From Pseudonocardia sp. SCN 73-27 (GTDB taxonomy: Bacteria > Actinomycetota > Actinomycetes > Mycobacteriales > Pseudonocardiaceae): a stretch of DNA of 47,286 bases. Below the pieces are notes generated by a model. It made no database searches and was not told the origin of the DNA. It worked only from the letters and a program-made list of their open reading frames with translations. The DNA is taken from positions 116,854 to 164,139 of the forward strand of contig MEGH01000017.1 in assembly GCA_001725415.1 (NCBI GenBank). The letters are read 5' to 3'. A program made the position numbers and the translations under genes. Below, in pieces: positions 27,591-46,787 of the stretch (position 1 is the stretch's first letter; each line of letters begins with the position of its first letter).

Positions 27591-27603
27591 CGATCGGCCG
27601 GCC

Positions 27604-27620: not shown

Positions 27621-27668
27621 GACCGGCCCCACCACCGGCCGACCACCGATCCGGAAAGAAGGACGACG

Positions 27669-29024: not shown

Positions 29025-29108
29025 CACGCGGACGGGGGACGCGCCGGCGCGCCGCGCAGCCGTCACGGCCGGCGTGCCGGCATCCCCCGTTCCCGCATCC
29101 GGACCGGA

Positions 29109-29125
29109 CGGCCCCTCGGGGGCCG
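29109..29125 (+). other. Hairpin in the gap before the binding-protein gene
   Basis: CGGCCCC and GGGGCCG pair over 7 bp around TCG. It lies in the 193-base gap between the oxygenase and transporter parts of the operon, together with a 12-bp palindrome GTGCACGTGCAC at 29159-29170. It may be a terminator or processing signal separating the two parts. Confidence 0.45.
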
Positions 29126-29179
29126 GGGCTGCCCGGTCGATCCGGTGCCCACCCCACCGTGCACGTGCACCACCCGACC

Positions 29180-29196
29180 CGCGCGCGGAGCGCGCG
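29180..29196 (+). other. Hairpin just upstream of the binding-protein gene
   Basis: CGCGCGC and GCGCGCG form a 7-bp stem around GGA, ending 21 bases before the start codon at 29218. It could protect the 5' end of the binding-protein mRNA, which must be made in excess over the membrane parts. Confidence 0.45.
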
Positions 29197-29217
29197 ACGA
29201 ACTCGATGGAGAGTCAC

Positions 29218-30843: not shown

Positions 30844-30871
30844 CCACGCCCGAGCTGAGAGGAGAGGCCCG

Positions 30872-31216
30872 ATGACGTACCTCATCGCCGAACCGTGCGT
30901 CGACCTGATGGACCGCAGCTGTGTGGACGTCTGTCCCGTCGACTGCATCTACCAGGGCGAACGCAAGCTCTACATCAACCCGGCCGAGTGCATCGAGTGC
31001 GGCGCGTGCGAACCGGAGTGCCCGGTCGACGCGATCGTCCTCGAACAGGAGCTCACCGACGACGAACGCCCGCACCTGGCCGACAACGCCGCCTTCTTCT
31101 ACGACACCCTCCCCGGCCGGGACGCCCCTCTGGGCGACCCCGGCGGGGCGAGCACGGTAGGACCCGTCGCCATCGACACCCCGCTGGTCGCAGCGTTGCC
31201 GCCGCGGGAGAGCTGA
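30872..31216 (+). CDS. 7Fe ferredoxin ([3Fe-4S][4Fe-4S])
   Basis: 114 residues with GAGAGGAGAGG upstream. Eight Cys occur at 9, 17, 21, 25, 40, 43, 46 and 50. The pattern matches the 7Fe ferredoxins (Cys9, 17, 50 for the 3Fe cluster and Cys21, 40, 43, 46 for the 4Fe cluster) with a Glu/Pro-rich tail. It carries electrons in the cytoplasm. It is placed between the binding protein and permease genes of an ABC importer, so it is probably there as a redox partner of the oxygenase at 27669 rather than for transport. Confidence 0.92.
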   Translation: MTYLIAEPCVDLMDRSCVDVCPVDCIYQGERKLYINPAECIECGACEPECPVDAIVLEQELTDDERPHLADNAAFFYDTLPGRDAPLGDPGGASTVGPVAIDTPLVAALPPRES

Positions 31217-31223
31217 GGCCGCC

Positions 31224-32267
31224 ATGGCAGAGATGACCATCTCGACACCACCGACCACGGCCGCGCCACCCGGCGAGACGCCGGGCAAGGCGCCGCGCGG
31301 GGGCCGGCGCAAGGCGGCCGTGCGAAGGGTCCGGCGCCGGCTGGTCCACCTGCTCATCGTGCTGATCGCGGTGACGTTCCTGTCGTTCGTCGTGATCGAC
31401 CTGCTCCCCGGCGACGCCGCCGTCGTCGTCGCCGGTGACAACGCCACCCCCGCGCAGGTCGCACAGGTGCGCACCGACCTCGGCCTCGACCGGCCGATGC
31501 TCGTGCGCTACGTCGACTGGCTCGGCGGCGTCGTCACCGGCGACCTCGGCCGCTCGTTCCGGACCGGCCAGCCCGTCACCGAGGCGCTCGCACAACGCAT
31601 CCCGGTGACGTTCGAGCTGACGATCATCGCCCAGGTCCTGGCGCTGCTGATCGCGGTGCCGCTGGCCATCTACTCGGCCTACCGGCCGGGCCGCTTCGTC
31701 GACCGCACCTCGATGACCCTCGGGTTCGGCGCCGCGGCGATGCCGCAGTTCGTGTTCGGCATGGTCCTGATCGTGCTGTTCGCCGGCGGGCTCACCAGCA
31801 TCCTGCCCGCCACCGGCTACACGAGCTTCTTCACCGACCCGCTCGGGAACCTGAGAACGATCATCCTGCCCTGCCTGACGCTGATGATCGCGGAGGCGGC
31901 GGTCTACCGACAACTCCTGAGATCGGACATGATCTCGACGCTGCAGGAGGACTACATCCTGATGGCGCGGTCCAAGGGCCTCGGACCGCGGACCATCCTG
32001 CTGCGCCACGCACTGCGGCCCTCGTCGTTCTCGCTGATCACGCTCTCCGGCGTGAACATCGGACGGCTCCTGGGCGGGACCGTGATCGTGGAGACGCTCT
32101 TCGCGATCCCGGGCCTGGGCCAGATGATCGTGCAGGCGGTGTTCAACCGCGACTACATGCTGCTGCAGGGCGGACTGCTCTTCGTCGCGGTGGCCTACGT
32201 CGTGATCAACATGATCATCGACCTGCTCTACCTCGTCCTCGACCCACGGGTGCGCCGCGATGCCTGA
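31224..32267 (+). CDS. ABC transporter permease, DppB/OppB type
   Basis: 347 residues, ATG seven bases after the ferredoxin stop. A cytoplasmic N-terminal region of about 45 residues is followed by about six membrane helices. The permease EAA loop that contacts the ATPase is visible in EDYILMARSKGLGP and the following ILLRHALRPS. The family pattern PGD (LLPGDAA) is near the first helix. It forms the membrane channel with the DppC-type partner, which it overlaps by 8 bases. Confidence 0.93.
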   Translation: MAEMTISTPPTTAAPPGETPGKAPRGGRRKAAVRRVRRRLVHLLIVLIAVTFLSFVVIDLLPGDAAVVVAGDNATPAQVAQVRTDLGLDRPMLVRYVDWLGGVVTGDLGRSFRTGQPVTEALAQRIPVTFELTIIAQVLALLIAVPLAIYSAYRPGRFVDRTSMTLGFGAAAMPQFVFGMVLIVLFAGGLTSILPATGYTSFFTDPLGNLRTIILPCLTLMIAEAAVYRQLLRSDMISTLQEDYILMARSKGLGPRTILLRHALRPSSFSLITLSGVNIGRLLGGTVIVETLFAIPGLGQMIVQAVFNRDYMLLQGGLLFVAVAYVVINMIIDLLYLVLDPRVRRDA

Positions 32268-33228
32268 CAGCCCGAAGACGACCACCACCACGAGCCTGGA
32301 GAAGGCGGCCGTCACCGACCGTGACGCCATCGACTCGGAGATCACCTCCGCGGACCTCGACCTCGTCGAGCCCATCACCGGGGCCACGGCGACCGAGCCG
32401 GCCAAGGCACGCCGCTCACGGACGCCGTTCGGCTGGTACCTGGCGTGGTTCTGGATCGCCGCCATCGTGATCTCGGCGATCTTCGCCCCGCTGCTGCCGC
32501 TGTGGGACCCCGCCGTCCCCGACTACAACAACGTGTTCGGCGGCATCACCCCGCAGCACTGGCTGGGCGGCGACACCCTCGGCCGTGACAACCTGTCGCG
32601 CATCATCTACGGCGCCAGGGCGTCGCTGCTCGTCGGCCTGTGCGCGGTGCTGCTCGGCGCGATCGTCGGCGGCATCCTCGGCATGGTCGCGGGCTACTTC
32701 CGCGGCCGCACCGAACGCGTCCTCGCCCTGATCACCGACGTCGTCCTCGCGTTCCCGGGCCTCGTCCTGATCATCGCGATCGTCGCCATCCTCGGCGCCA
32801 GCCTCACCAACCTGATCGTCGGCCTCGCGATCCTCTCGGTGCCGACCTTCATCCGGCTCTCCCGCGCGACGACGCTCGTCGTCACCCAGCGGGAGTTCGT
32901 GCAGGCCGCCCGCGCCTACGGGTGCAGACCGATGCGGATCATCCTGCGTGAGATCGCGCCCAACGTCGTCATGCCGGTCGCGGCGTACGGCTTCATCATG
33001 GTCGGCGTGTTCATCGTCGTGGAGGGCTCGCTGAGCTTCCTCGGCCTGGGCATCCCGCCGCCCACCCCCTCGTGGGGCGGCATGATCGCCGGCGGGCGCA
33101 CCCAGCTGATCGAGTACCCGCACATCTCGCTGATCCCCGCCGCGGTCATGTTCCTGACCGTGCTGTCCATCAACTACGTCGGCGAGCGCAGCCGCAAGCT
33201 GTTCGAGGTCAGGGAGAGCAACCTGTGA
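32260..33228 (+). CDS. ABC transporter permease, DppC/OppC type
   Basis: 322 residues. It has a charged cytoplasmic N terminus of about 55 residues, one helix, the family segment HWLGGDTLGRDNLSRIIYGAR and a further five helices with the EAA loop REFVQAARAYGCRPMRII. It pairs with the DppB-type permease. The start overlaps the preceding stop region and the stop overlaps the next ATG (TGATG). Confidence 0.93.
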   Translation: MPDSPKTTTTTSLEKAAVTDRDAIDSEITSADLDLVEPITGATATEPAKARRSRTPFGWYLAWFWIAAIVISAIFAPLLPLWDPAVPDYNNVFGGITPQHWLGGDTLGRDNLSRIIYGARASLLVGLCAVLLGAIVGGILGMVAGYFRGRTERVLALITDVVLAFPGLVLIIAIVAILGASLTNLIVGLAILSVPTFIRLSRATTLVVTQREFVQAARAYGCRPMRIILREIAPNVVMPVAAYGFIMVGVFIVVEGSLSFLGLGIPPPTPSWGGMIAGGRTQLIEYPHISLIPAAVMFLTVLSINYVGERSRKLFEVRESNL

Positions 33229-34391
33229 TGCGCCCGACGACGCCCCAGGCCGAGAAGGCCCCCACCACCGCTGCTCCCGGCAGGCACGCCCGCCGCGAAG
33301 GCTTCGAGGACGGTGCACTGCTGACCGTCGAGGACGTCCACGTCCGGTTCCACACCCGCAACGGCGTCGTGCACGCCGTCGAGGGCGTGTCGCTGGAGCT
33401 GTCCGAGGGCGAGGTGCTCGCCGTCGTCGGCGAGTCCGGCTCGGGCAAGACCGTCTTCACCCGACGCGTCATGGGTCTCATCGCCGGCAGCCGCGACACC
33501 GAGGTCAGCGGCACCGTGACCTTCGACGGCATCACGCTCTCCGAACTCGACGCCAAGGGCCTGTCCAAGGTGTGGGGCAAGGAGATCGCGCTGGTCCTGC
33601 AGGACCCCATGACCTCGCTCAACCCGGTCAAGCGGATCGGCGCCCAGATCACCGAGACGCTGATCCTGCACCAGAAGCTCTCCAAGCAGGACGCGAACGC
33701 CCGCGCGATCGAGCTGCTGCGCTCGGTCGGGCTGTCCGAGCCCGAGCGCCGGGTGCGCCAGTACCCGCACGAGCTCTCCGGCGGCATGCGCCAGCGCGTC
33801 ACCATTGCGATCGCGCTGTCGTGCAGCCCCCGGCTGCTGCTCGCCGACGAGCCCACCACGGCCCTCGACGTCACCGTCCAGGCCCAGATTCTCGACCTGC
33901 TGGGTGACCTGCAGTCGCGGCTGGGCATGGCGATGCTGCTGGTCACCCACGACCTGCGGGTCGTGCGCAGCCGCAGCGACCGGATCGCGGTCATGTACGC
34001 GGGCCGGATCGTCGAGACCGCGCCGACGAAGGACCTGTTCGACTCGCCCCGGATGCCCTACACCGAGGCGCTGATGAACGCCGTCCCGCCGATCACCGGG
34101 CCCAACCACGTCCGGCTCGCCGTCATCCCGGGCCGCCCGCCGGACCTGCTGGCCCCGCCCAAGGGCTGCCGGTTCAGCCCGCGCTGCCCGTACGCGCAGG
34201 ACAGGTGCCTCACCGAGGAACCGCCCCTGCGCGACGCGGCAGACCTGCCCGACGGCTCCGCCGTCGAGCACTCCTACCGGTGCTGGTACCCGGTGGGGAC
34301 ACCCGAGAACGCCGAGGCGCGCCGGGTCAACGTCGAACGCGGCGAGACCGCCGCCGGGACGCCGGTGACGGGGGAGATGGTGCCCGCATGA
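33228..34391 (+). CDS. ABC transporter ATP-binding protein, DppD/OppD type
   Basis: 387 residues from ATG 33228 (GTG 33225 is also in frame). Walker A GESGSGKT is at 68-75, the signature LSGGMRQRV and Walker B LLLADEPT follow, and the C-terminal oligopeptide/dipeptide domain is shown by GCRFSPRCPYAQDRC, with Cys residues that in some relatives bind an iron-sulfur cluster. It powers the importer as a heterodimer with the next protein. Confidence 0.94.
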   Translation: MRPTTPQAEKAPTTAAPGRHARREGFEDGALLTVEDVHVRFHTRNGVVHAVEGVSLELSEGEVLAVVGESGSGKTVFTRRVMGLIAGSRDTEVSGTVTFDGITLSELDAKGLSKVWGKEIALVLQDPMTSLNPVKRIGAQITETLILHQKLSKQDANARAIELLRSVGLSEPERRVRQYPHELSGGMRQRVTIAIALSCSPRLLLADEPTTALDVTVQAQILDLLGDLQSRLGMAMLLVTHDLRVVRSRSDRIAVMYAGRIVETAPTKDLFDSPRMPYTEALMNAVPPITGPNHVRLAVIPGRPPDLLAPPKGCRFSPRCPYAQDRCLTEEPPLRDAADLPDGSAVEHSYRCWYPVGTPENAEARRVNVERGETAAGTPVTGEMVPA

Positions 34392-35473
34392 GCAGCACGA
34401 CCGACAGCAGCGTCGTCCTGGAGAAGCCGGCCGAGGACAAGCCGAGCGAGGACGTCGTCCTGCGGCTGGAGGACCTCGTCGTCGAGTTCCCCGCGGGCGC
34501 AGGACAGATCGTCCACGCCGTGTCCGGGATCAACCTGGAGGTCCGCCGCGGCGAGACCCTCGGGCTGGTCGGCGAGTCCGGCTGCGGCAAATCCACGACC
34601 GGGCGCGCCATCATGCAGCTGCCCAAGCCGACCAGCGGCTCGGTCCACTTCGACGGCCGCGACCTGGCGTCGCTGTCGTCGGAGGAGGTCCGCAAGCTGC
34701 GGCCCAAGCTGCAGATGATCTTCCAGGACCCCATCTCGTCGCTGAACCCGCGACGGCGGATCCCCGACATCGTCGGCGACCCGCTCGTCGTCTGGGGCCG
34801 CGGCGCCGAGAAGGCCAAGGTCGTCCCCGAGGTGCTGCGCGCCGTCGGGCTCGACCCCGAGCAGGTCGCCGACCGGCGCCCGCACCAGTTCTCCGGCGGC
34901 CAGTGCCAGCGTGTCTCGATCGCGCGGGCCCTGGTGCTCGAGCCCGAGGTGCTGATCTGCGACGAGCCCGTCTCGGCGCTCGACGTGTCCGTGCAGGCCC
35001 AGATCCTCAACCTGCTCGAGGACATGAAGGCACGCTACGGCCTCACCCTGGTGTTCATCGCCCACGACCTGGGCGTCGTCCGCAACATCAGCGACCGCGT
35101 CGCCGTCATGTACCTGGGGCGGATCTGCGAGCTCGGACCCACCGAGGCGCTCTTCGACGCCCCCGTGCACCCGTACACGCGGCTGCTCGTCTCCTCGATC
35201 CCGTCGATGGAGGGCGCGCAGCGCGGCGAGGTCGGCACCGGCGAGATGCCCTCGCCCGTCTCGCCGCCCAGCGGGTGCCGGTTCCGCACCCGCTGCCCGC
35301 TGGCCACCGACCGGTGCGCCTCCGAGGTGCCCGAGATGCGGGAGGTGGCGCCCGGCCGCTTCACCGCCTGCCACCACCCGATCCTCGACACACCCGTCGA
35401 GGCACCGCTGCCGGCCGCCGTCGCAGGCGACCACTCGACAAACGGGACCGCTCCGGCCCCCGCGGACAGCTGA
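34388..35473 (+). CDS. ABC transporter ATP-binding protein, DppF/OppF type
   Basis: 361 residues, ATG overlapping the previous stop (ATGA). Walker A GESGCGKST is at 62-70, the signature FSGGQCQR and Walker B LICDEPVSALD follow, and the C-terminal domain has GCRFRTRCPLATDRC. It completes a five-part importer (binding protein, two permeases, two ATPases) with the ferredoxin as the only extra gene. Confidence 0.94.
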   Translation: MSSTTDSSVVLEKPAEDKPSEDVVLRLEDLVVEFPAGAGQIVHAVSGINLEVRRGETLGLVGESGCGKSTTGRAIMQLPKPTSGSVHFDGRDLASLSSEEVRKLRPKLQMIFQDPISSLNPRRRIPDIVGDPLVVWGRGAEKAKVVPEVLRAVGLDPEQVADRRPHQFSGGQCQRVSIARALVLEPEVLICDEPVSALDVSVQAQILNLLEDMKARYGLTLVFIAHDLGVVRNISDRVAVMYLGRICELGPTEALFDAPVHPYTRLLVSSIPSMEGAQRGEVGTGEMPSPVSPPSGCRFRTRCPLATDRCASEVPEMREVAPGRFTACHHPILDTPVEAPLPAAVAGDHSTNGTAPAPADS

Positions 35474-35529
35474 GCACCGGCCGGGCCCGGCCCCTGTCCG
35501 CATCGTCGCGGCAGGGGTCGGGCTGGGGT

Positions 35530-36819
35530 GTGGTCGTCGCAGGCTCGGTACTGCTGCTCGTCCAGACCGGGTGCGTGATCAGCGCGTTCGGCGCCTACCT
35601 CGTCGCGATCACCGCCGACACCGGCTGGAGCCCCGGCATCGTCGCCGTCGCGTTCGCGATCATCCAGCTCGGCAACGGCACCATCTCGCCCGTCACCGGC
35701 TGGGCCTGCGACCGCTTCGGCACCCGCGCCGTCGCCGCCCTCGGGACCCTGCTCACCGCCGCAGGCTGCGTCATGGTCGCCCAGGCCGGCAGCTCCGGCG
35801 GGTTCATCGGCGCCGTCGTCGTGGTCTCCCTCGGCTGCTCGGCCGCCGGGATCACGCCGCTGACCGTCGCCGTCGTCCAGTCGCTCACCGACCGGCGCAC
35901 CCTCGCGCTCGGCCTGCTGCCCAGTGGCATCGCGCTCGGCGGGCTGCTCGTCCCCGCCGTCGTGTGGCTGCTCGACACCGCGGGCTGGCGCACCGCGTTC
36001 CTCGTCGTCGCCGCCGTGACGACCGTCGTCGGCCTGGTGGCGTGCATCTGGCTGCCGGGGCCCCTCGCCTCGTCGTCGTCGCGGCGTCGCCTGCGGAGGC
36101 GCCGGGTCGCCGTCGCCGCCCCCGACGCCGCCGTTTCCGCCGTCGCCGCGCCCGGACCGGTTGCCGGGCCCGACATGGACCTGCGCGCCGCCGTCCGCAC
36201 CTCCGCGTTCTGGCTGCTCGTCGTCGGGCACGGGTGCGCGCTCGTGGCCGTCGGCGCCATGAACCTGCACCTCGTCCCGCTCATGACCCACGGCCGCGGG
36301 TTCGACCTCGCCGTCGCCGGGCTGGCCGTCGCCGGCATGTCCGTCACCCAGCTCATCGGCCAGCTCGTCACCGGCGTCGTCGGCGACCGCTTCGACAAAC
36401 GCCGCCTCGCCGCCGGCTGCATGGCGCTGCAGACGGCCGTCCTCGTCGTGCTCGCGCTGTCGTCGAACCTGGTGGTCGTGTTCGCCGCAGCGATGCTGCA
36501 CGGCCTGGCCTGGGGGCTGCGCGGCCCCGCCATGAACGCCATCCGCGCCGACTACTTCGGCACCCGCGCCTTCGGCACCATCACCGGCTGGTCGATGGGG
36601 TTCGTGTCGCTGGGGATGGTGGGCGGGCCGCTGCTCGTCTCCGTGTTCGCCGAGGGTCCGGGTGGCTACCCGGTCGGCTTCCTCGCCGCGACGGCCGCGA
36701 CCGTCGCCGGGCTCGTCGCGTTCCTCGTGGTGCGCCCGCCACGTCCGCGTGAGCCGGTCACCAGCACCGTCCCGGCCGCCGGCTGCGGCTGCTCGGCCGC
36801 GCCCGAGTCGGCGGCCTGA
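35530..36819 (+). CDS. Major facilitator superfamily transporter
   Basis: At least 429 residues with about 12 membrane helices in two six-helix halves, joined by an Arg-rich loop near residue 180. The helix 2-3 loop has DRFGTR and the matching place in the second half has DRFDKRR, both typical of MFS. The start is uncertain: the frame stays open far upstream, and GTG 35530 falls at the first helix without a strong ribosome-binding site. CTG 35470 overlapping the DppF stop would add a short polar N terminus. The fold resembles the oxalate/formate and monocarboxylate-type carriers, so uptake or export of an organic acid is likely. It ends with a Cys-rich GCGCSAAP tail. Confidence 0.82.
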   Translation: MVVAGSVLLLVQTGCVISAFGAYLVAITADTGWSPGIVAVAFAIIQLGNGTISPVTGWACDRFGTRAVAALGTLLTAAGCVMVAQAGSSGGFIGAVVVVSLGCSAAGITPLTVAVVQSLTDRRTLALGLLPSGIALGGLLVPAVVWLLDTAGWRTAFLVVAAVTTVVGLVACIWLPGPLASSSSRRRLRRRRVAVAAPDAAVSAVAAPGPVAGPDMDLRAAVRTSAFWLLVVGHGCALVAVGAMNLHLVPLMTHGRGFDLAVAGLAVAGMSVTQLIGQLVTGVVGDRFDKRRLAAGCMALQTAVLVVLALSSNLVVVFAAAMLHGLAWGLRGPAMNAIRADYFGTRAFGTITGWSMGFVSLGMVGGPLLVSVFAEGPGGYPVGFLAATAATVAGLVAFLVVRPPRPREPVTSTVPAAGCGCSAAPESAA

Positions 36820-37971: not shown

Positions 37972-39477
37972 TCAGACCTGCAGGGCGAACCACAGTTCGG
38001 CGCGCACGCCGGGGGAGTCGAGGTCGCGGTCCAGCAGCCGGGCGGCCTTGTCGATGCGGGTGCGCAGCGTGTGCCGGTGCACGCCCAGTGCGGTCGCGGC
38101 CGGGTCCCACTGCCCGTGGTGGGTGAGCCATGCCCGCACCGACTCGACGAGCTCGCCGCGGCGGTGCTCGTCGTGGCGCACGAGCGGGCGCAGCAGCGAC
38201 TCCGCGAACCCGGCCGCGTCGCCCGCCGGGACCAGCTCGTGCAGCCCGGCACCCGCGAGCTCGCCGAACCGCACGACGGGCAGGTGCCGACGGTGGGCGG
38301 CGTCGAGGGCGTGGACGGCCTGGTCGACGGCCTGCCCGACCGGGGTCCGCCCCGGCGTCGCGCCACCGGCAGACGGATCGCCGGCGATCGGGTCGGACAC
38401 CCCGGCGTGCACGTCCGGCCAGGTCGCGGCCGCGCGCAGCACCGCGTCGGACTCGCCCGGCTCGGCCAGCACGAGGACCGCGTCGCCCCGGGCCGCCGCG
38501 AACGGTGGCCTGCGGTCGCGTCCCTCCAGCGCGTCGAGCAGGTCGTCGGTGCGGCCGTCGCGGCGGCGCAGCGCGAGCGCGTGCGCACCCGCGCCGGGCG
38601 GGCGTCCCCACAGTGGCTCCGCGATGTCGGCGGCCCCGGTACCGGGGGCCGTGAGCATCAGTTCCAGCAGCGCGCCGCGCAGGTCGCGCTCCGCGCGGGC
38701 GACCGCCGTCCCGCGGGCATGCAGCAGTGTCAGCACCGAGACCGCCGAGCCGACGACCTGCGTGTCGGCGGGGGAGAACGGCGTCGACCGACCGACCGCC
38801 AGGACGCCGCGCCCGGGCAGCCGGACCGTCTGGAGCACGACATGGCCCTCGCCCCCGGAGATCGTCAGGCTCGTCGTGCCCCGCCGGGCCAGGACCCGGC
38901 GGGTCTCGCCGCGCAGCCCGGCGGCGCGGCGGCCGGCGCCGCGCGGCGCCGCGTGCCGGACGACGTGCGTCGCGTCGACGACCAGCGCCCAGGCGTCGAG
39001 CAGCTCGGCGAGGGTACGCAGCACGCCGGTGGTCCCGCGTGCCGCCGCGGCCGTGAGCGCCCGTTGCGCCTCGTCGGAGCGCACCACCTGCGCGTACGCA
39101 TCGGCCGCGAGCGCCGCCGACACCGCCTTGGTGATCGCGATGAACGGGGTGCGCTCGGGCACCTCCAACAGCGGCAGCCGCACCCGCTCGCACGCCTCGG
39201 CCAGCGCGGCGGGGATCGTCGCCCAGCCCAGACCGACGCCGAACCCGAGACCCGCGAGCCCGTGCGCGGCCAGCCGGCCCGCGTAGGCGGCCGGATCGGT
39301 CGCCCGGATGGGCAGTCCTGTGGTCAGCAGGAGCTCGCCGCCGTCGAGATACCGGGTCGGGTCGGCGAGCTCGCTGCTGTGGGCCCAGCTGACCTCGCGA
39401 TCCAGATCTGCGGAGGGACACGCCGGGCGGAGTCCGAGACTGCGGTCGGACACCAGTTCGGTGAGGGTCGCGGGCAC
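37972..39477 (-). CDS. PucR/CdaR family transcriptional regulator
   Basis: 501 residues from GTG 39477, chosen because GGAGG lies 7 bases before it; GTG 39501 would add eight residues. The N-terminal PucR domain begins TLTELVSDRSLGL and contains LDGGELLLTTGL. A GGDEF-like middle region follows. The C-terminal HTH_30 helix-turn-helix is in DPAATALGVHRHTLRTRI. PucR proteins regulate purine, amino acid and organic acid catabolism. The gene is divergent from a molybdenum hydroxylase gene of the xanthine dehydrogenase family, its likely target. Confidence 0.92.
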   Translation of the reverse strand: MPATLTELVSDRSLGLRPACPSADLDREVSWAHSSELADPTRYLDGGELLLTTGLPIRATDPAAYAGRLAAHGLAGLGFGVGLGWATIPAALAEACERVRLPLLEVPERTPFIAITKAVSAALAADAYAQVVRSDEAQRALTAAAARGTTGVLRTLAELLDAWALVVDATHVVRHAAPRGAGRRAAGLRGETRRVLARRGTTSLTISGGEGHVVLQTVRLPGRGVLAVGRSTPFSPADTQVVGSAVSVLTLLHARGTAVARAERDLRGALLELMLTAPGTGAADIAEPLWGRPPGAGAHALALRRRDGRTDDLLDALEGRDRRPPFAAARGDAVLVLAEPGESDAVLRAAATWPDVHAGVSDPIAGDPSAGGATPGRTPVGQAVDQAVHALDAAHRRHLPVVRFGELAGAGLHELVPAGDAAGFAESLLRPLVRHDEHRRGELVESVRAWLTHHGQWDPAATALGVHRHTLRTRIDKAARLLDRDLDSPGVRAELWFALQV

Positions 39478-39484
39478 GGTCGCA

Positions 39485-39489
39485 CCTCC
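39485..39489 (-). promoter_or_regulatory. Shine-Dalgarno site of the PucR gene
   Basis: GGAGG on the - strand lies exactly 7 bases before GTG 39477 and falls within the coding frame of the longer version from GTG 39501. This favours the shorter protein. Confidence 0.55.
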
Positions 39490-39521
39490 AGGAGCCGTCA
39501 CCGAAGGTGGACACGTCGTCG

Positions 39522-39575: not shown

Positions 39576-39632
39576 ATCACCCTGGCGGTACGCGTGCGCC
39601 CACCACCCTGCACAGCAGAAGGACGTGATCCG

Positions 39633-42002
39633 GTGACCCAGACCGCCCCGCGGTACGTCGGCCAGAGCTTGCCCCGCAAGGAGGACGCGGCGCTGCTGAC
39701 CGGGAACGGGACCTGGACCGACGACATCACCCCGGCCGCGACGCTGCACATGGCCGTCGTGCGCAGCCCCGTCCCGCACGCCCGCATCCGCGGCATCGAC
39801 ACCACCGCCGCCCGCGCCCTGCCCGGCGTCGTGCACGTCCTCACCGGGAAGGACCTGGCCGGGGAGTTCGTCGCCGGCATCCCCTGCGGCTGGCCCGTCA
39901 CCGAGGACATCAAGATCCCCGAGCACCACGCGATCGCCGTGGGCGAGGTCAACCACGTCGGCGACGGCGTCGCGGTCGTGCTCGCCACCAGCGCCACCGC
40001 GGCCCGCGACGCCGTCGACCTCGTCGAGGTCGACTACGACCCGCTGCCCGCCGTCGTCGACATCGAGGCGGCGATGGAACCGGGCGCACCGCTCGTCCAC
40101 GAGGAGCTGGGCACCAACCACTGCTACACGTGGCCGCTGGCCACCGGCGACGTCGACGCCGCGTTCGCGCAGGCCGACGTCGTCGTCGAGGGCCGCTACC
40201 TGCAGCAGCGCGTCATCGCCTCACCGATGGAGCCGCGCGCGGTCGTCGTCACCCCCGACCCGGTCGGTGGCGGCTACACGATGTACACCGCGACGCAGGT
40301 GCCGCACTTCGTCCGCGACATCCTCGCCGCGATCTGCTCGGTACCCGATACGAAGCTGCGCGTCGTCGCCCCCGACGTCGGCGGCGGCTTCGGCGCCAAG
40401 CTCAACGTCTACGCCGAGGAGGCCCTTGCGCTCGTCCTCGCGCGGCACACCGGGCGTCCCGTGAAGTGGACGGAGAGCCGGTCGGAGCACCACCTGGCGA
40501 CCACGCACGGCCGCGGCCAGGTCCAGCACATCGCCGTCGCCGCCACCCGCGACGGGCGCATCCTCGGCATGAAGGTGAACCTGCTCGCCGACATGGGCGC
40601 CTACCTGCAGCTGCTCACCCCGGGCATCGCGGTGTTCGGCGCGTTCACCTACTGCGGCCTCTACGACTTCGGCGCGTACTCCTTCGAGTGCAGGGGCGTG
40701 TTCACCAATCTCACCCCGACCGACGCCTACCGCGGCGCAGGCCGGTCCGAGGCCGCCTACGCCCACGAGCGGATCATGGACGACCTGGCTCGTGAGCTGG
40801 GCATGGACCCGGCCGAGGTGCGGCTGCGCAACCTGCACCCGCCCTTCGACGAGCCGCGCGTCGTCCCGTCCGGGGTGCTGTACGACTCGGGCGACTACGA
40901 GCGGTGCATGCGCCGGGCGCTCGACCTCGTCGGCTACGACGAGGTGCGCGCCGAGCAGGCCCGCCGACGCGAGTCCGAAGACCCCGTCCAGATCGGCATC
41001 GGGATCGGCAACTTCACCGAGAGCGGCGGGCTGTCGCCGTCGAAGGTCGCCGCGGGGGTGCGGCTGCAGTCGGGCGGCTGGGAGGCCGCGACCGTGCGGA
41101 TGACCACGAGCGGCAAGGTCGAGGTCGTCACCGGGACCTCGCCGCACGGGCAGGGGCACGAGACGGCGTGGGCGCAGATCGTCGCCGACCGGCTCGGCGT
41201 GGACCCGGCCGACGTCGAGGTCCTGCACGGCGACACCATGATCGCCCCCTTCGGCCGCGACACCTACGGCTCGCGCAGCCTCGCCGTCGGCGGCACCGCC
41301 GTGCACCTCGCGGCCGGCAAGGTGCGCGACAAGGCCATGACGATCGCGGCGCACCTGCTGGAAGCCGACGAGTCCGACCTGGAGTTCGCGGGCGGCCTGT
41401 TCGCCGTCGCAGGGACGGGCGGGGCCGGTGTCACCATCCAGGAGGTGGCCGGCGCGGCGTCGCTGGCGGCGAACCTGCCCGACGGCATGGAGCCCAACCT
41501 CACCGCCGACCACCACTTCGACCCGCCCAACTTCACCTGGCCCTTCGGCACCCACATCTGCGTCACCCACGTCGACACCGACACCGGGTTCGTGCGCATC
41601 CACCGCTACGTCGCCGTCGACGACTGCGGGCACCTGGTGAACCCGCAGATCGTCGAGGGCCAGCTGCACGGCGGCATCGCCCAGGGCATCGGGCAGGCCC
41701 TGTTCGAGCACGCCACCTTCGACGCCGACGGCAACCCGACGACGGGCACGCTCGCCGACTACACGATCCCGTCGGCCACCGACCTGCCGATGTTCGAGCT
41801 CGACCAGACCGTCACCCCGTCGCCCACGAACCCCATGGGGGTCAAGGGAATCGGCGAGTCCGGCGCGATCGGGTCGTCGCCGGCCGTCGTCAACTCGGTG
41901 ATCGACGCCGTCGCCCACCTCGGCGTCACCCACCTGGACATGCCGGCAACCCCGCAGGCGGTGTGGCGGGCGATCAGCGCCGCGAGGGGCGAGACTCGGT
42001 GA
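39633..42002 (+). CDS. Xanthine dehydrogenase/CoxL family molybdopterin-binding subunit (form II type)
   Basis: 789 residues from GTG 39633, preceded by GAAGGA. The two molybdopterin domains are complete: GxxxxRxED opening (GQSLPRKED), GGGFGAK, and AYRGAGR at 365-371, the form II signature (form I CO dehydrogenases have AYxCSFR). The catalytic Glu742 is in GIGESG. It would hydroxylate or oxidise a heterocycle or aldehyde using a molybdenum cofactor. The normal partners, a 2Fe-2S small subunit and a FAD subunit, are not in the window. It is followed by the Pxp/biotin genes, 61 bases away. Confidence 0.92.
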   Translation: MTQTAPRYVGQSLPRKEDAALLTGNGTWTDDITPAATLHMAVVRSPVPHARIRGIDTTAARALPGVVHVLTGKDLAGEFVAGIPCGWPVTEDIKIPEHHAIAVGEVNHVGDGVAVVLATSATAARDAVDLVEVDYDPLPAVVDIEAAMEPGAPLVHEELGTNHCYTWPLATGDVDAAFAQADVVVEGRYLQQRVIASPMEPRAVVVTPDPVGGGYTMYTATQVPHFVRDILAAICSVPDTKLRVVAPDVGGGFGAKLNVYAEEALALVLARHTGRPVKWTESRSEHHLATTHGRGQVQHIAVAATRDGRILGMKVNLLADMGAYLQLLTPGIAVFGAFTYCGLYDFGAYSFECRGVFTNLTPTDAYRGAGRSEAAYAHERIMDDLARELGMDPAEVRLRNLHPPFDEPRVVPSGVLYDSGDYERCMRRALDLVGYDEVRAEQARRRESEDPVQIGIGIGNFTESGGLSPSKVAAGVRLQSGGWEAATVRMTTSGKVEVVTGTSPHGQGHETAWAQIVADRLGVDPADVEVLHGDTMIAPFGRDTYGSRSLAVGGTAVHLAAGKVRDKAMTIAAHLLEADESDLEFAGGLFAVAGTGGAGVTIQEVAGAASLAANLPDGMEPNLTADHHFDPPNFTWPFGTHICVTHVDTDTGFVRIHRYVAVDDCGHLVNPQIVEGQLHGGIAQGIGQALFEHATFDADGNPTTGTLADYTIPSATDLPMFELDQTVTPSPTNPMGVKGIGESGAIGSSPAVVNSVIDAVAHLGVTHLDMPATPQAVWRAISAARGETR

Positions 42003-42063: not shown

Positions 42064-42789
42064 ATGGTGGCCATCAACTGCGACATGGGCGAGTCGTTCA
42101 GCATCTACCACTGCGGCGACGACGAGGGGCTGATGCCCTTCATCACGATCGCGAACGTGGCGTGCGGGTTCCACGCCTCCGACCCGCGCGTCATGGCGAA
42201 GACCGTGAAGCTGGCGAAGGAACACGGCGTGAAGGTCGGGGCGCACCCGTCGCTGCCCGACCGCGAGGGCTTCGGCCGTCGTGAGATGAAGATGGACCGC
42301 GACGAGCTGACCGCGGCCGTCATCTACCAGATCGGTGCGCTCGAAGGGTTCCTGCGCGCCGAGGGCATGGAGCTCAACCACGTCAAACCGCACGGCTCGC
42401 TCTACGGCATGGCCGCCCGCGACCCCGAGGTCGCCGGGGCCGTCGCCGACGCCGCCGACGTCTTCGGCGTCCCGCTCATGGGCATGTCGGGCACCGTCCA
42501 CGAGCAGGTGTGGGGCGAGCGGGAACCCGGCTTCATCTCCGAGTACTACGCCGACCTCGACTACCGCGACGACGGCTCGCTGATCATCACCCGCGAGCAC
42601 CTGCCGTTCGACCCGGCGACGTCGGCGCAGGGCGCGGTGCGGGCGGTGACCGAGGGCAAGGCGTCGTCGGTCAACGGCAACGACCTCGCCGTGCGCGCCG
42701 ACTGCGTGTGCGTCCACTCCGACACCCCGAACGCCGTCGAGCTGGCCCGGGCCGTGCACGACGCGCTGCAGCCGTACCTGACCACCTGA
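42064..42789 (+). CDS. pxpA: 5-oxoprolinase subunit A-like protein (LamB/YcsF family)
   Basis: 241 residues from ATG 42064, chosen because GGAGGAG lies 9 bases before it and relatives begin with the same INCDMGE-type strand; ATG 42025 would add 13 unrelated residues. Family features are NCDMGES, NVACGFHASDP, VGAHPSLPDREGFGRR and VKPHGSLYG. With PxpB and PxpC it forms the bacterial ATP-dependent 5-oxoprolinase. Here PxpA is separated from PxpBC by a biotin carrier and a biotin carboxylase, so the substrate could be 5-oxoproline or another lactam or cyclic amide. Confidence 0.88.
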   Translation: MVAINCDMGESFSIYHCGDDEGLMPFITIANVACGFHASDPRVMAKTVKLAKEHGVKVGAHPSLPDREGFGRREMKMDRDELTAAVIYQIGALEGFLRAEGMELNHVKPHGSLYGMAARDPEVAGAVADAADVFGVPLMGMSGTVHEQVWGEREPGFISEYYADLDYRDDGSLIITREHLPFDPATSAQGAVRAVTEGKASSVNGNDLAVRADCVCVHSDTPNAVELARAVHDALQPYLTT

Positions 42790-42818
42790 CAGACTCGACC
42801 GCTCCGACCACTCTGGAC

Positions 42819-42825
42819 GAAGGAG
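42819..42825 (+). promoter_or_regulatory. Shine-Dalgarno site supporting a TTG start
   Basis: GAAGGAG ends 5 bases before TTG 42831. No ATG or GTG in this frame gives a protein that starts at the edge of the biotinyl domain, so the TTG is the best start. Confidence 0.6.
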
Positions 42826-42830
42826 TCCCG

Positions 42831-43076
42831 TTGCCGCGTCACGAGGTCGTCTCCCCGATCCCCGGTGTGTTCTACCGGCGACCCGACCCCGACAGCCCAC
42901 CGTTCGTCGAGGACGGCGGCACCGTCGCCGCCGACCAGGCCGTCGGGCTCGTCGAGGTCATGAAGTCGTTCCACCAGGTCGCCGCCGGCGCCGAGGGGAC
43001 ACTCGTCGAGTTCCTCGTCGGCGACGAGGACGAGGTCGACGCCGGCCAGCCCGTCGCGGTGGTGGAGACGGGGTGA
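42831..43076 (+). CDS. Biotin carboxyl carrier protein (biotin/lipoyl attachment domain)
   Basis: 81 residues from TTG 42831. It is a bare biotinyl domain: SPIPGVFYRRP opens the first strand and EVMKSFHQ holds the biotinylated Lys (motif MK), with the second half-barrel GTLVEFLV and GDEDEVDAGQPVAVVE. The Pro/Ala-rich N-terminal arm of acetyl-CoA carboxylase carriers is missing. It is coupled by GTGA overlap to the biotin carboxylase. The MK-S-F form differs from the usual AMKM and suggests a specialised carrier. Confidence 0.85.
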   Translation: MPRHEVVSPIPGVFYRRPDPDSPPFVEDGGTVAADQAVGLVEVMKSFHQVAAGAEGTLVEFLVGDEDEVDAGQPVAVVETG

Positions 43077-44428
43077 AGCGCCTGCTCGTCGCCAACCGCG
43101 GCGAGATCGCGGTCCGCATCATCCGGGCGGCGCGCGACCTCGGCATCGCGACCGTCGCCGTGCACAGCAAGGCCGACGCCGACGCCCTGCACACCCGCCT
43201 CGCCGACACCGCGACCGAGATCGGGCCCTCGCCCGCCTCGAAGAGCTACCTGGTGATCGACGCGATCCTGGCGGCGGCGAAGGAGTCCGGTGCCGACGCC
43301 GTGCACCCCGGCTACGGGTTCCTGTCCGAACGCGCCGGGTTCGCGGCGGCCGTCGCCGACGCCGGTCTGACGTTCGTCGGCCCCGACGCGTCGGTGATCG
43401 AGAGGATGGGGGACAAGGTCGCCGCGCGGGAGATCGCCCGCGCGGCCGGGGTCCCGACGGTGCCCGGTACCCCCGGTGGGGTCGCGGATGTCGACGAGGC
43501 GCTCGCCGCCGCCGAGGACGTCGGCTACCCGGTGATGCTCAAGGCCGCGGCCGGTGGGGGTGGGCGCGGCATCCGGGTCGTCGACGACGCCGACGCACTG
43601 CGCACCGCGTTCGGGCAGGCCTCGCAGGAAGCGGCGAAGGCGTTCGGCGACGGCACGATGTACCTGGAACGGTTCGTCACCCACGCCCGCCACGTCGAGG
43701 TCCAGGTCCTCGGCGACGGCAGCGACGCCGTGCACCTGCTCGACCGCGAGTGCTCGCTGCAGCGGCGCCGCCAGAAGATGGTCGAGGAGGCAGTCGCACC
43801 CGGCGTGTCCGACACGCTGCGCAAACGTATGACCGAGGCGTCGGTCGCACTGTGCCGGCAGGTCGGCTACCGCAGCGCCGGCACCGTCGAGTACCTCGTC
43901 GACGACGACACCGGCGAGTTCTTCTTCATCGAGATGAACACCCGCATCCAGGTCGAGCACCCGGCGACCGAGCTCGTCACCGGCCTCGACATCGTCGCCG
44001 ACCAGCTGCGCATCGCCGCGGGGGAGCCGCTGCGGTTCGTCCAGGACGACGTCACCGCCCGCGGGCACGCCATCGAGTTCCGGGTGTGCGCCGAGGACCC
44101 CGCGAACAACTTCCTGCCCGCCCCCGGCGCCCTCGGCCGCGTCACGCTGCCCGCCGGGCCGTGGGTCCGCTGCGACACATGGGCCGAGCCCGACGGGAAG
44201 GTCCCGCCGTTCTACGACTCGTTGCTGGCCAAGGTGATCGTCTGGGGCGCCGACCGCGAGGAGGCGATCCGCCGCTCCCGCCGCGCCCTCGCCGAGTTCT
44301 CCGTCGCCGGCGTCGCCACCACCGCCGGGCTGTTCGGCGAGCTGCTCGACGAGGACTGGTTCACCGCCGGTGAGTTCCACACCGGGACGCTCGAGCAATG
44401 GCTCGCCACCAGGGAGGGGAACGCGTGA
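43073..44428 (+). CDS. Biotin carboxylase (ATP-grasp)
   Basis: 451 residues, GTG start overlapping the carrier gene. The N-terminal domain starts RLLVANRGEIAVRI, the ATP-grasp glycine loop is KAAAGGGGRGI, and catalytic residues appear in HVEVQVLGD, ECSLQRRRQK and FIEMNTRIQVEHP. It carboxylates biotin on the carrier with ATP and bicarbonate. No acyl-CoA carboxyltransferase gene is near; instead the following PxpB and PxpC are homologous to the carboxyltransferase domain of urea carboxylase. The stop overlaps the PxpB start. Confidence 0.92.
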   Translation: MKRLLVANRGEIAVRIIRAARDLGIATVAVHSKADADALHTRLADTATEIGPSPASKSYLVIDAILAAAKESGADAVHPGYGFLSERAGFAAAVADAGLTFVGPDASVIERMGDKVAAREIARAAGVPTVPGTPGGVADVDEALAAAEDVGYPVMLKAAAGGGGRGIRVVDDADALRTAFGQASQEAAKAFGDGTMYLERFVTHARHVEVQVLGDGSDAVHLLDRECSLQRRRQKMVEEAVAPGVSDTLRKRMTEASVALCRQVGYRSAGTVEYLVDDDTGEFFFIEMNTRIQVEHPATELVTGLDIVADQLRIAAGEPLRFVQDDVTARGHAIEFRVCAEDPANNFLPAPGALGRVTLPAGPWVRCDTWAEPDGKVPPFYDSLLAKVIVWGADREEAIRRSRRALAEFSVAGVATTAGLFGELLDEDWFTAGEFHTGTLEQWLATREGNA

Positions 44429-45312
44429 GCACCGCTGTCCAGGACGCCCGCTACAGCTGGGGCGGCGACGAGTTCGTGTTCGTCGAGCTGGCCGAGGAGA
44501 TGAGCCTGCAGGCCAACTTCCGGGCCATGGCGATCACGTCGCGGCTGCGCGACGAACGCCCCGACGGAATCGTCGACATCTGCCCGGCCAACGCCTCCTA
44601 CCAGGTCCACTACGACCCCGACGTGCTCGACCCGCGGGAGCTGCTCGCGCACCTGCAGGACCTCGAACGGGCCGTCGGCGACGCCCTCGACGTCAGCCTG
44701 CCCAGCCGCGTCCTCGACATCCCGGTGCTCTACCGCGACCCGTGGACCACCGAGACGCTGATGCGCTTCCGCGACCGCCACCAGGACCCCGACGCCACCG
44801 ACATCGAGTACGCGGCCCGCATCAACGGCTACACCGACGTCGACGAGTTCATCGCCGCCCACTCCGGCTCCCCGTGGTTCACCTCGATGGTCGGGTTCGT
44901 CGCCGGGCTGCCGTTCACGTTCCAGATGGTGCCGAGGGACCGCCAGATCGTCGTCCCGAAGTACCTGCGGCCCCGCACCGACACACCGAAGCAGACCGTC
45001 GGCTACGGCGGCTGCTTCTCCTGCATCTACTCGGTCCGCGGCGCGGGCGGCTACCAGATGTTCGGGATCACGCCGGCGCCCATCTACGACCCGACGCAGT
45101 CGCTGCCCGACTTCACCGACTTCCTCGTCCTGTTCCGGCCGGGTGACATCGTGAAGTTCACCCCGATCGACCGCGACCAGTACGACGACGCCGTCGCCCA
45201 GGTCGAGGCGGGCACGTTCCGGGTCACCGCGCACGACGTCGACTTCGCGCTCGAACCGTTCCTCGCCGACCCCGACAGCTACAACGCCCGGCTGCTGGAG
45301 GTGCTGGCATGA
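44425..45312 (+). CDS. pxpB: 5-oxoprolinase subunit B-like protein (KipI/allophanate-hydrolase subunit 1 family)
   Basis: 295 residues from GTG 44425 with AGGGAGGGGA before it. Family features: an N-terminal small domain, then DIPVLY, FTSMVGFVAGLPF, VPKYLRPRTDTPK and GYGGCFSCIYSVRGAGGYQMFG, close to the KipI consensus G-vg-ggG--tgiYp---PGGW-liG. Together with the next protein it corresponds to the carboxyltransferase part of urea carboxylase. It is longer at the N terminus than many PxpB proteins. It overlaps PxpC (ATGA). Confidence 0.87.
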   Translation: MSTAVQDARYSWGGDEFVFVELAEEMSLQANFRAMAITSRLRDERPDGIVDICPANASYQVHYDPDVLDPRELLAHLQDLERAVGDALDVSLPSRVLDIPVLYRDPWTTETLMRFRDRHQDPDATDIEYAARINGYTDVDEFIAAHSGSPWFTSMVGFVAGLPFTFQMVPRDRQIVVPKYLRPRTDTPKQTVGYGGCFSCIYSVRGAGGYQMFGITPAPIYDPTQSLPDFTDFLVLFRPGDIVKFTPIDRDQYDDAVAQVEAGTFRVTAHDVDFALEPFLADPDSYNARLLEVLA

Positions 45313-46280
45313 CAGCGTCGATCGAGGTGCGCAAGCCCGGACTGTCGACGACAGTGCAGGACGGCGGCCGGCCCGGCTACTACCACCTGGGCATCCCGCC
45401 GTCGGGCGGGCTCGACCAGTACTCCCTCGCCGCGGCGAACCTGCTCGTCGGCAACGACGCCGGTGCCGCGGCGCTGGAGATCGTCTACATGGGGCCTGAG
45501 CTGCTGTTCACCGCCCCGGCGACGGTCGCCGTCACGGGCGCGACCATGCAGCCGCGCGTGAACGGCGAGGACCGGCCGCTGTGGGAGTCCTTCGACGTCG
45601 CCGAGGGCGACGTCCTCGGCTTCGGGTACCTCACCGCCGGGGCCCGCGCCTACCTCGCGGTCTCCGGCGGCGTCGACGTCCCCGACGTGCTCGGCAGCCG
45701 CTCCACCTACGGCCTCGGCGGACTCGGCGGGTTCTCCGGACGCCCGCTCGCCGAGGGCGACGTCCTCCCGCTCCGCGGCGGCACCGGCCGCACAGGGCTC
45801 GTCGTCCCCGGCGACCTGCGGCGCCCCATGTCCAAGGACGTCGAGGTCCGCGTCGTCATGGGCCTCTACGACCACCGCCTCACCGACCAGGGCCGCGCCA
45901 CGTTCCTCGACACGACATGGACGCTCACGCCCGTCGCCGACCGGATCGGGTTCCGCTACACCGGCGCCGAGCTGGAGACCGTCGACCGGGAGCCGCCGTT
46001 CGGGGCCGGCCAGGACCCGTCCAACATCGTCGACGCGCCCTACCCGATCGGGTCCATCCAGGTCCCGGGCGGTGTGGAGCCGATCGTGCTCCACCGCGAC
46101 GCCGTGTCCGGTGGCGGCTACATGATGGTGGCGACGGTGGTGTCCTGCGATCTCGACGTCGTCGCCCAGTCGGCGCCACGCACCCGGACCCGGTTCGTGG
46201 AGGTCGACCTCGACGGCGCCCTCGCTGCCCGGGCCGAGCAGCGGGACCGGGCCCGCCGCTTGCGGGAGGCACTCGGCTGA
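45309..46280 (+). CDS. pxpC: 5-oxoprolinase subunit C-like protein (KipA/allophanate-hydrolase subunit 2 family)
   Basis: 323 residues, ATG overlapping the PxpB stop. It opens IEVRKPGLSTTVQDGGRPG, the KipA/biotin-dependent carboxyltransferase-2 hallmark, and continues with GIPPSGGLDQYSLAAANLLVGN, AYLAVSGGVDVP and PGGVEPIVL. PxpB and PxpC form one complex. In urea carboxylase the homologous domain carries out carboxyl transfer from biotin to an amide nitrogen, which makes the neighbouring biotin genes meaningful. Confidence 0.9.
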   Translation: MTASIEVRKPGLSTTVQDGGRPGYYHLGIPPSGGLDQYSLAAANLLVGNDAGAAALEIVYMGPELLFTAPATVAVTGATMQPRVNGEDRPLWESFDVAEGDVLGFGYLTAGARAYLAVSGGVDVPDVLGSRSTYGLGGLGGFSGRPLAEGDVLPLRGGTGRTGLVVPGDLRRPMSKDVEVRVVMGLYDHRLTDQGRATFLDTTWTLTPVADRIGFRYTGAELETVDREPPFGAGQDPSNIVDAPYPIGSIQVPGGVEPIVLHRDAVSGGGYMMVATVVSCDLDVVAQSAPRTRTRFVEVDLDGALAARAEQRDRARRLREALG

Positions 46281-46337
46281 CTCGCCCGTTCGTCAGGTTG
46301 CGCGCGGGGTGTGGGGCGCGTGCGGGAGGATCACCGG

Positions 46338-46787
46338 GTGACCACGCCCACCCAGCCGACGGTCCTCGTACTCAACGGCCCCAACCTCAACCTGCTCGGC
46401 ACCCGCACGCCGGAGGTCTACGGCTCGACGACGCTCGACGACGTCGCCGCCCTCTGCCGCTCGGAGGCCGCCGAGCACGGCTGGGCCGTCGACCTGCGAC
46501 AGTCCAACCACGAGGGCGAGCTCGTCGACTGGCTCCACGAAGCCGGCCGCGCCGACGGCTGCCCCGGGGTCGTGCTCAATGCGGGCGCCTACACCCACAC
46601 CTCGGTCGCGCTGCACGACGCGATCGAGGCGATCGACGTGCCCGTCGTCGAGGTGCACATCTCGAACGTGCACAAGCGTGAGGCGTTCCGGCACCACTCG
46701 TACCTGTCGCCCGTGGCGGCGGGGATCGTCGTCGGGTTCGGGGTGGCGGGCTACGCCCTGGCGGTCCGCGGCCTCGCCACCCGCTGA
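46338..46787 (+). CDS. aroQ: Type II 3-dehydroquinate dehydratase
   Basis: 149 residues from GTG 46338, preceded by GGGAGG. All type II features are present: [12 protein letters not shown], catalytic Tyr28 in PEVYGS, Asn81 in [10 protein letters not shown] and His107 in VEVHISN, then [10 protein letters not shown]. It interconverts 3-dehydroquinate and 3-dehydroshikimate as a dodecamer in the cytoplasm. It may belong to shikimate synthesis, but in a catabolic island it could also serve quinate degradation towards protocatechuate. It ends the + strand run; a 57-base gap separates it from PxpC. Confidence 0.93.

Follow-up and report, generated by a model that had tools for sequence, protein, structure and literature searches.

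A five-gene unit of Pseudonocardia sp. SCN 73-27 predicted to encode a split biotin-dependent carboxylase-hydrolase

A stretch of 47,286 nucleotides of the genome of Pseudonocardia sp. SCN 73-27 (GenBank contig MEGH01000017.1, positions 116,854 to 164,139; the whole stretch is here called the window) was found to carry, at 42064 to 46280, genes for a PxpA-like protein, a stand-alone biotin carboxyl carrier protein (BCCP), a biotin carboxylase (BC), and PxpB-like and PxpC-like proteins. As predicted from sequence, and with a probability of roughly 0.7, these five genes encode a split biotin-dependent carboxylase-hydrolase, in which a lactam would be carboxylated at nitrogen and then hydrolysed by the PxpA-like protein. 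That PxpB and PxpC are the carboxyltransferase (CT) of this BC and BCCP is very likely, and a CT is preferred to a plain 5-oxoprolinase because of the conserved linkage of the genes, the affinity of both proteins to urea carboxylase in sequence, tree and fold, a lysine in place of arginine at one position, the biotin genes found nearby and the separate plain pxpABC of the host. The preliminary description of this DNA had proposed a single biotin enzyme rather than a plain 5-oxoprolinase; the CT assignment within that proposal is now well supported, and complex formation, N-carboxylation, ring opening and the lactam substrate we infer from homology and gene context.

In the proposed mechanism, the biotin of the small carrier would be carboxylated by BC with consumption of ATP and bicarbonate. 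The PxpB-like and PxpC-like proteins, acting together as a CT of the urea carboxylase type, would then pass the carboxyl group on to the lactam, at its amide nitrogen. N-carboxylation would weaken the ring, the PxpA-like protein would hydrolyse the N-carboxylated lactam, and the resulting N-carboxy amino acid would then give off CO2 to leave an omega-amino acid. An oxidising enzyme encoded upstream, a molybdenum hydroxylase in the window and a diiron monooxygenase in some relatives, is probably responsible for making the lactam or preparing its precursor. A lactam is the probable substrate, and 2-pyrrolidone is the leading candidate for the family because gamma-aminobutyric acid (GABA) appears as the product in a number of relatives; the chances are about even that GABA or a close analogue is the main product across the family. 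More tentatively, the system may represent a third chemical route for the opening of unactivated lactams, used by some haloarchaea and, probably, by hundreds of species of bacteria. It would convert mainly 2-pyrrolidone-type compounds to GABA, and the lactam would often be supplied by a molybdenum hydroxylase acting on a cyclic imine or an N-heterocycle.

All five Pfam assignments (LamB_YcsF, Biotin_lipoyl, BC, CT_C_D and CT_A_B) are above cut-off, and three of the junctions are 4-base overlaps, with a 41-base gap between PxpA and BCCP (Table 1); coordinates and Pfam agree with the packing by 4-base overlaps or short gaps described previously. BCCP is a bare biotinyl domain with the motif EVMKSF (PF00364, 50.4 bits, scored on a longer reading in the same frame) and scored 117.4 against NCBIfam model NF005457 (cut-off 87), its expected biotinylated lysine, K45, being present in 87/87 carrier rows of the alignment. 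The motifs KAAAGGGGRG, RHVEVQ, DRECSLQRRRQK, EMNTRIQVEH and GHAIEFR, which we take to be the active-site motifs of biotin carboxylases, were located in BC, and the solved sequences nearest to it are biotin carboxylases. The parts by which a biotin-dependent carboxylase is recognised, namely a carrier lysine, a complete BC and a CT, are present as judged by domains and conserved residues. The PxpA-like protein passed two NCBIfam subfamily models (NF003814, 266.3 against a cut-off of 226; NF003816, 224.8 against 213) and did not reach the three PxpA equivalog models; the D, E, H and K residues of classical PxpA are kept in it, as deduced by column comparison. No HyuA- or HyuB-type Pfam family was matched by any of the five proteins, and no amidase (allophanate hydrolase family) occurred among the eight proteins scanned with Pfam between 37972 and 46784. 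Rfam gave nothing in the window at gathering scores.

Table 1 Features of the five-gene unit and of its neighbours, in window coordinates.
Feature	Position	Strand	Remarks
PxpA-like (LamB/YcsF) hydrolase subunit	42064..42789	+	241 aa, ATG 42064; PF03746, 296.6 bits
Stand-alone biotin carboxyl carrier protein (BCCP)	42831..43076	+	81 aa, TTG start behind AAGGAG
Codon of expected biotinylated Lys K45 of BCCP	42963..42965	+	from sequence and column conservation
Biotin carboxylase (BC)	43073..44428	+	451 aa, GTG start; three Pfam domains, complete
PxpB-like CT subunit (CT subdomains C and D, CT_C_D)	44425..45312	+	295 aa, GTG start; PF02682, 133 bits
Codon of PxpB Lys179, aligned with KlUA Lys1605	44959..44961	+	hand count along the printed alignment
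PxpC-like CT subunit (CT subdomains A and B, CT_A_B)	45309..46280	+	323 aa, ATG start; PF02626, 282.9 bits
Molybdenum hydroxylase large subunit, xanthine-dehydrogenase family	39630..42002	+	open frame from 39507; MoCoBD_1, MoCoBD_2, Ald_Xan_dh_C
PucR-family regulator	37972..39501	-	PF07905, PF13556; divergent from the molybdenum hydroxylase gene
Type II dehydroquinase	46311-46787		downstream of the unit; Pfam

It is well supported that PxpB and PxpC of the window are not ordinary 5-oxoprolinase subunits and that they are nearest to the CT of urea amidolyase. Against solved sequences, PxpC gave 166 and 165 bits with the urea carboxylase/amidolyase of Kluyveromyces lactis, 142.8 with YbgK and 109.1 with the M. 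smegmatis protein; for PxpB the top match by bits was P. horikoshii PH0987 (69.7), urea carboxylase being second (63.2) with an alignment that spans residues 9-281 of 295. In NCBIfam, PxpB scored 128.5 with urea_carbox and 78.6 with the PxpB model TIGR00370 (cut-off 145.55, not reached), and PxpC scored 192.3 with the PxpC equivalog NF045499, under the cut-off of 500, passing narrowly the broad domain model TIGR00724 (239 against 230.2). The names PxpB and PxpC in the preliminary description were thus too generous, since both proteins fall under the 5-oxoprolinase equivalog cut-offs. The urea carboxylase model TIGR02712 was not reached by the separate genes, the highest score being 539.2 (BC alone) against 1303.85. 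Foldseek gave urea amidolyase as top match for the models of both proteins, built as single chains and, for PxpB, weak at residues 184-209, with TM (template modelling) scores of 0.72-0.75 for PxpB, versus 0.53 to YbgJ, and of 0.90 for PxpC, versus 0.84 to YbgK. In quick trees, which sampled 24 of the 94 window-type rows and 20 of the 36 or 37 classical ones, window-type PxpB formed a clade (99) that joined the urea-carboxylase type with a Shimodaira-Hasegawa-like approximate likelihood ratio (SH-aLRT) of 99.2, in a tree with flagged long branches, while the split holding window-type and urea-carboxylase-type PxpC had a support of 76, unstarred. Last, P237, N239, D242 and Y245 of PxpC are common to the window type and urea carboxylase, and the classical rows differ there. 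The kinship of PxpB and PxpC with the urea carboxylase CT, stated earlier as established, is borne out by sequence, tree, fold and Lys179.

This lysine of PxpB aligns with Lys1605 of the K. lactis urea amidolyase KlUA, which, according to the available part of PMC5770610, most likely acts in the CT as an essential general base. The position is occupied by Lys in 94/94 window-type PxpB rows and in 15/17 rows of the urea-carboxylase type, which contain three loci twice and so amount to 13/14 distinct loci (the exception is G100). Arg was found in 37/37 classical and 6/6 biotin-adjacent classical rows (43/43). The plasmid loci that were read, two of them haloarchaeal, have Lys in 10/10 cases, L194 being the same locus as L059.

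Relatives were collected from named genomes by two PxpB peptide patterns that leave out Lys179, and the best 80 of at least 581 confirmed stretches were read. Within these 80, the order PxpA-BCCP-BC-PxpB-PxpC on one strand recurs in 73, one of them (L142) interrupted by a gap of about 6.5 kb, and the grouping goes beyond chance because the same genes, order and strand are found again so often; the earlier remark that similar groupings occur in other bacteria thus holds. PxpC was present in 80, BC in 78, BCCP in 76 and PxpA in 75; five of the seven exceptions to the order lie near a contig end (L079, L108, L131, L132 and L150), and two (L087 and L139) miss BC. The closest PxpB relatives in this set are from Pseudonocardia, at 85% identity. 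Together with 13 stretches from other genomes, 93 window-type loci were available, 61 of them from Pseudomonadota, with PxpC in 93, BC in 90, PxpA in 88 and BCCP in 87. Window PxpB was matched at E 1e-20 or better in 31 of 296 genomes of its phylum: 14 genomes, the host included, at 54% identity or more, and 17 at 29-34% with urea-carboxylase-like or classical proteins. In 200 genomes of the same order 15 had a PxpB relative at E 1e-60, two of these just 45% identical. The loci coded f19, taken as Rubrobacteraceae, have the same parts rearranged and a divergent BC.

The unit also occurs on plasmids, 89 records of a plasmid collection, haloarchaeal ones included, having a PxpB relative at E 1e-40; all five genes were present in nine of the ten loci read. 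Two haloarchaeal plasmids (L195 and L199, from Haladaptatus and Natronorubrum) carry full five-gene sets in rearranged order. On plasmid pRHL2 of Rhodococcus jostii RHA1 (L197), a Lys-type PxpB (46% identical) and PxpC adjoin bacterial microcompartment shell genes, and PxpA, BCCP and BC lie 6-7 kb away from them.

Genes of biotin supply were detected beside some of the clusters. BioY was found nearby in 15/93 and BioB in 11/93 window-type loci, and either of them in 26/93, compared with 0/43 classical controls (40 places hand-picked from a longer list plus L071, L068 and L069, all actinobacterial); the reference proteins for these counts, and for those of GABA enzymes below, were drawn from the counted loci themselves. 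BioY directly follows PxpC in four alphaproteobacterial loci (L113, L120, L144 and L145). BioB is found upstream of PxpA in four loci of Burkholderia (L092, L146, L149 and L151) and after PxpC in L087-L089 and L139. In 13 relatives (12 of f19 and one of f35) there is one BioY gene per genome, located within about 1 kb of PxpB in G145, G164, G216, G200, G155 and G174, about 6 kb off in G283 and elsewhere in the other six.

Gene neighbourhoods also point to GABA. A GABA transaminase, counted from 42% identity to one of two references and 250 bits upwards, was found nearby in 16/93 window-type loci, and a succinate-semialdehyde dehydrogenase (SSADH) in 8/93; each was found in 0/43 classical ones. 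The assumption that all neighbouring class III aminotransferases are GABA transaminases was dropped, and weak ones were left uncounted, because several, at an identity of about 30%, may be BioA or other enzymes. Seven of the transaminases and four of the SSADHs were tested, and all are above the NCBIfam cut-offs (TIGR00700 and TIGR01780). The linked transaminase occurs in alpha-, beta- and gammaproteobacterial loci, in one myxococcal locus and in several of Rubrobacteraceae. PxpC is followed directly by SSADH and transaminase in Grimontia (L138) and by the transaminase in L140. Among the 13 relatives in which BioY was located, the Rubrobacteraceae G174, G164, G145, G216, G200 and G155 have a single GABA transaminase at E 1e-100, about 3-5 kb from PxpB.

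The molybdenum hydroxylase gene of the window lies upstream of the unit on the same strand, and a 65-83% identical neighbour occurs in 12/93 window-type loci. A large subunit of this kind was found nearby in 16/93 loci (15/93 without L080, a distant 28% match; that of L136, at 41%, is cut by a contig end) compared with 0/43 classical ones, and the enzyme is likely a functional partner of the five genes. As a required part of the system it was ruled out by this count. On plasmids of Diaphorobacter and Sulfitobacter all three hydroxylase subunits follow the TorT-like ATP-binding cassette (ABC) importer of the cluster. In L145, PxpA-BCCP-BC-PxpB-PxpC, BioY, three hydroxylase subunits, GABA transaminase and SSADH are found within about 13 kb, with a stretch lacking any Pfam match between the hydroxylase subunits and the transaminase. 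The actinobacterial loci L076 and L080-L084 have, at the place of the window's molybdenum hydroxylase, a diiron monooxygenase upstream of PxpA, its family checked by Pfam in L080 and L081 and by sequence clustering in the others. The host genome contains 18 Fer2_2 domains, one of them about 60 kb away on the contig of the window.

The PucR-family protein is likely the regulator of the cluster; a member of this family lies close to the cluster in a further eight actinobacterial loci. One member is GabR, which activates gabTDP in C. glutamicum according to the available part of PMC7652997, and the family also holds regulators of purine and other genes. NCBIfam at E 1e-30 gave no match for the PucR-family protein of the window or for three proteins of one diiron monooxygenase locus. 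Further upstream, positions 26001-36816 of the window hold another catabolic island, with an RraA-like protein, a LigXa-type Rieske oxygenase, a major facilitator superfamily transporter and a peptide-type ABC importer (binding protein, two permeases and two ATPases). The dehydroquinase downstream is probably unrelated to the five genes.

The host genome (6.95 Mb) has a second, plain pxpABC on contig C50; the stretch read there contains neither BC nor BCCP. Ten biotin carboxylase domains were found in the genome. Of acyl-CoA carboxyltransferases of family PF01039, nine were found, all on other contigs and none on that of the window (C17); this agrees with the earlier observation that no acyl-CoA carboxyltransferase stands among the genes. 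A second stand-alone BCCP-BC pair lies on contig C60 (L070, 3613-11560), with a CoA transferase ahead of it and amidase and amidohydrolase domains after it. Neither kind of carboxyltransferase was found at that place, which is possibly another biotin-plus-hydrolase system.

Several observations weigh against a lactam carboxylase-hydrolase. No enzyme assay for the window type was found in the open-access literature searched, and the neighbour controls are actinobacterial only, while the window-type loci are mostly from Pseudomonadota. A GABA transaminase was not seen nearby in 77/93 window-type loci at the threshold used; in the 13-genome search it lies elsewhere in six genomes (in G062 on the same contig, 15 kb off) and is absent from G283 at E 1e-100. 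None in the window genome exceeds the TIGR00700 cut-off (best 244.6 against 506.65), which rules out GABA as a settled product in this host. Besides the limited spread of the molybdenum hydroxylase, its FAD (flavin adenine dinucleotide) and 2Fe-2S subunits were not found beside the large subunit in the loci of Pseudonocardia, the window's included, and Rubrobacteraceae. Transporters vary by group (TorT-like ABC importers, a permease with a weak, below-cut-off cytosine/purine match, and others), and therefore the substrates may differ too. As for BC, it was not found within about 9 kb upstream in the Lys-type f19 locus L054, and the acidimicrobial loci L087 and L139, of Lys type with PxpA, BCCP, PxpB, PxpC and BioB, lack it in the cluster; biotin carboxylase domains are present elsewhere in these two genomes. 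Plasmid pYJN5-2 of Paenarthrobacter sp. YJN-5 (L196) encodes a Lys-type PxpB with PxpC and PxpA and has no BC or BCCP in the stretch; its neighbours are a glutamine-synthetase-family gene, a class III aminotransferase and an aldehyde dehydrogenase. Conversely, six loci of one actinobacterial family (f27; L068, L069 and L153-L156) have an Arg-type, classical PxpBC near BC and BCCP, and the classical locus L186 has BC only nearby. A strict rule by which Lys marks a biotin neighbourhood is ruled out by L196 and the six f27 loci. The grouping of window-type with f27 PxpB was not rejected (approximately unbiased test, p-AU 0.122), and Arg-type PxpBC may have biotin links of their own, because the title of PDB entry 9yx5 shows PxpBC on an acyl-CoA carboxylase. 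The f27 loci, with a carrier motif EAMKxM and PxpA further off, show a different and perhaps independent link of biotin genes with PxpBC.

Three other explanations were considered. Carboxylation might be the purpose in itself, with an open-chain amide, a urea-like compound or an N-heterocycle as acceptor and a role for the PxpA-like protein other than lactam hydrolysis. CTs of the urea carboxylase type also act on guanidine. Such a CT acts on urea (PMC5770610, in the part available), amidases adjoin the cluster in some loci, and the several kinds of transporter argue for more than one substrate; set against this, PxpA keeps the residues conserved in the classical protein, the five-gene unit is devoid of an amidase-family protein and the GABA transaminase linkage extends across several bacterial groups, so that an acceptor of this kind is considered unlikely. 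Somewhat less likely still is a 5-oxoprolinase converting 5-oxoproline to glutamate, either coupled to biotin or as a plain PxpABC with bystander biotin genes. The two PxpA subfamily cut-offs exceeded by the PxpA-like subunit would fit it, as would the Lys-type PxpBC pair of L196, standing apart from BC and BCCP, and the need for pxpTABC in growth of C. glutamicum on 5-oxoproline (available part of PMC13274462). The 12 window-type f19 genomes have one PF02682 match each, and therefore no second PxpB, which also speaks for this explanation. It is contradicted by the equivalog scores of PxpB and PxpC, by the plain pxpABC kept separately in the host and by Arg in all 37 sampled plain PxpB at the position of Lys179; moreover, with glutamate as product there would be no need for GABA transaminase and SSADH, to which the cluster is linked in some loci.

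The public annotation names BC and BCCP as parts of acetyl-CoA carboxylase, and with nine PF01039 carboxyltransferases in the genome they might serve an acyl-CoA carboxylase whose CT is encoded elsewhere, the PxpABC genes being passengers. This is highly improbable: no PF01039 gene was found on the contig, the pairing with PxpB/PxpC is kept in Actinomycetota, Pseudomonadota and two haloarchaeal plasmids, and the carrier motif EVMKxF differs from the EAMKxM of f27 carriers. As lone acyl-CoA carboxylase parts BC and BCCP were ruled out, since no CT was found on the contig and the pairing is conserved elsewhere.

The split carboxylase-hydrolase, if true, would give a large family often annotated as acetyl-CoA carboxylase, allophanate hydrolase and 5-oxoprolinase a definite identity as a biotin enzyme whose substrate can be tested. 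Bicarbonate-driven cleavage of an amide bond would be gained, BioY and BioB beside some clusters would be accounted for, and the urea carboxylase CT and the oxoprolinase PxpBC would be related through one active-site Lys/Arg difference. The gene grouping is already in databases, where the NCBI models that cover the small carrier and biotin carboxylases of this type bear acetyl-CoA carboxylase names. A description of the five-gene unit as a biotin enzyme was not found in open-access full text (a scope that excludes subscription papers and preprints), in agreement with the earlier statement that no settled biochemistry was known for the biotin partners.

Among known systems, prokaryotic 5-oxoprolinase PxpABC has homologous PxpA, PxpB and PxpC, and the window system differs from it by the addition of BC and BCCP, by Lys179 in place of Arg and by a longer PxpB (295 aa). 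In PDB entry 9yx5, the long-chain acyl-CoA carboxylase of M. smegmatis, the pair MSMEG_0435-0436 (PxpC/PxpB homologues) is bound, as judged by the entry title and chain list; its PxpB differs from that of the window in its short length (210 aa) and in an Arg at the position aligned with Lys179. The caprolactamase CapAB and OplBA likewise open unactivated lactams at the expense of ATP, with unrelated proteins (HyuA/HyuB type) for which the available parts of the sources mention no biotin cofactor. A role of bicarbonate is discussed for CapAB (PMC8453981, in the part available), and an aminotransferase comes next after ATP-dependent lactamases of the hydantoinase family, according to the available part of PMC6061476. 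A close parallel in composition is urea amidolyase/urea carboxylase (KlUA and KlUC of Kluyveromyces lactis; PDB 5i8i and 3va7), which contains BC, BCCP and a CT of the same two subdomain pairs, with an identity in structural alignments of about 20% for PxpB and 32-34% for PxpC. Urea amidolyase is a single chain with an allophanate hydrolase of the amidase type, whereas the system described here consists of five proteins with a LamB/YcsF hydrolase. The proposed general-base lysine of the CT is kept, and the five-gene system would share with urea amidolyase the logic of carboxylating first and hydrolysing afterwards.

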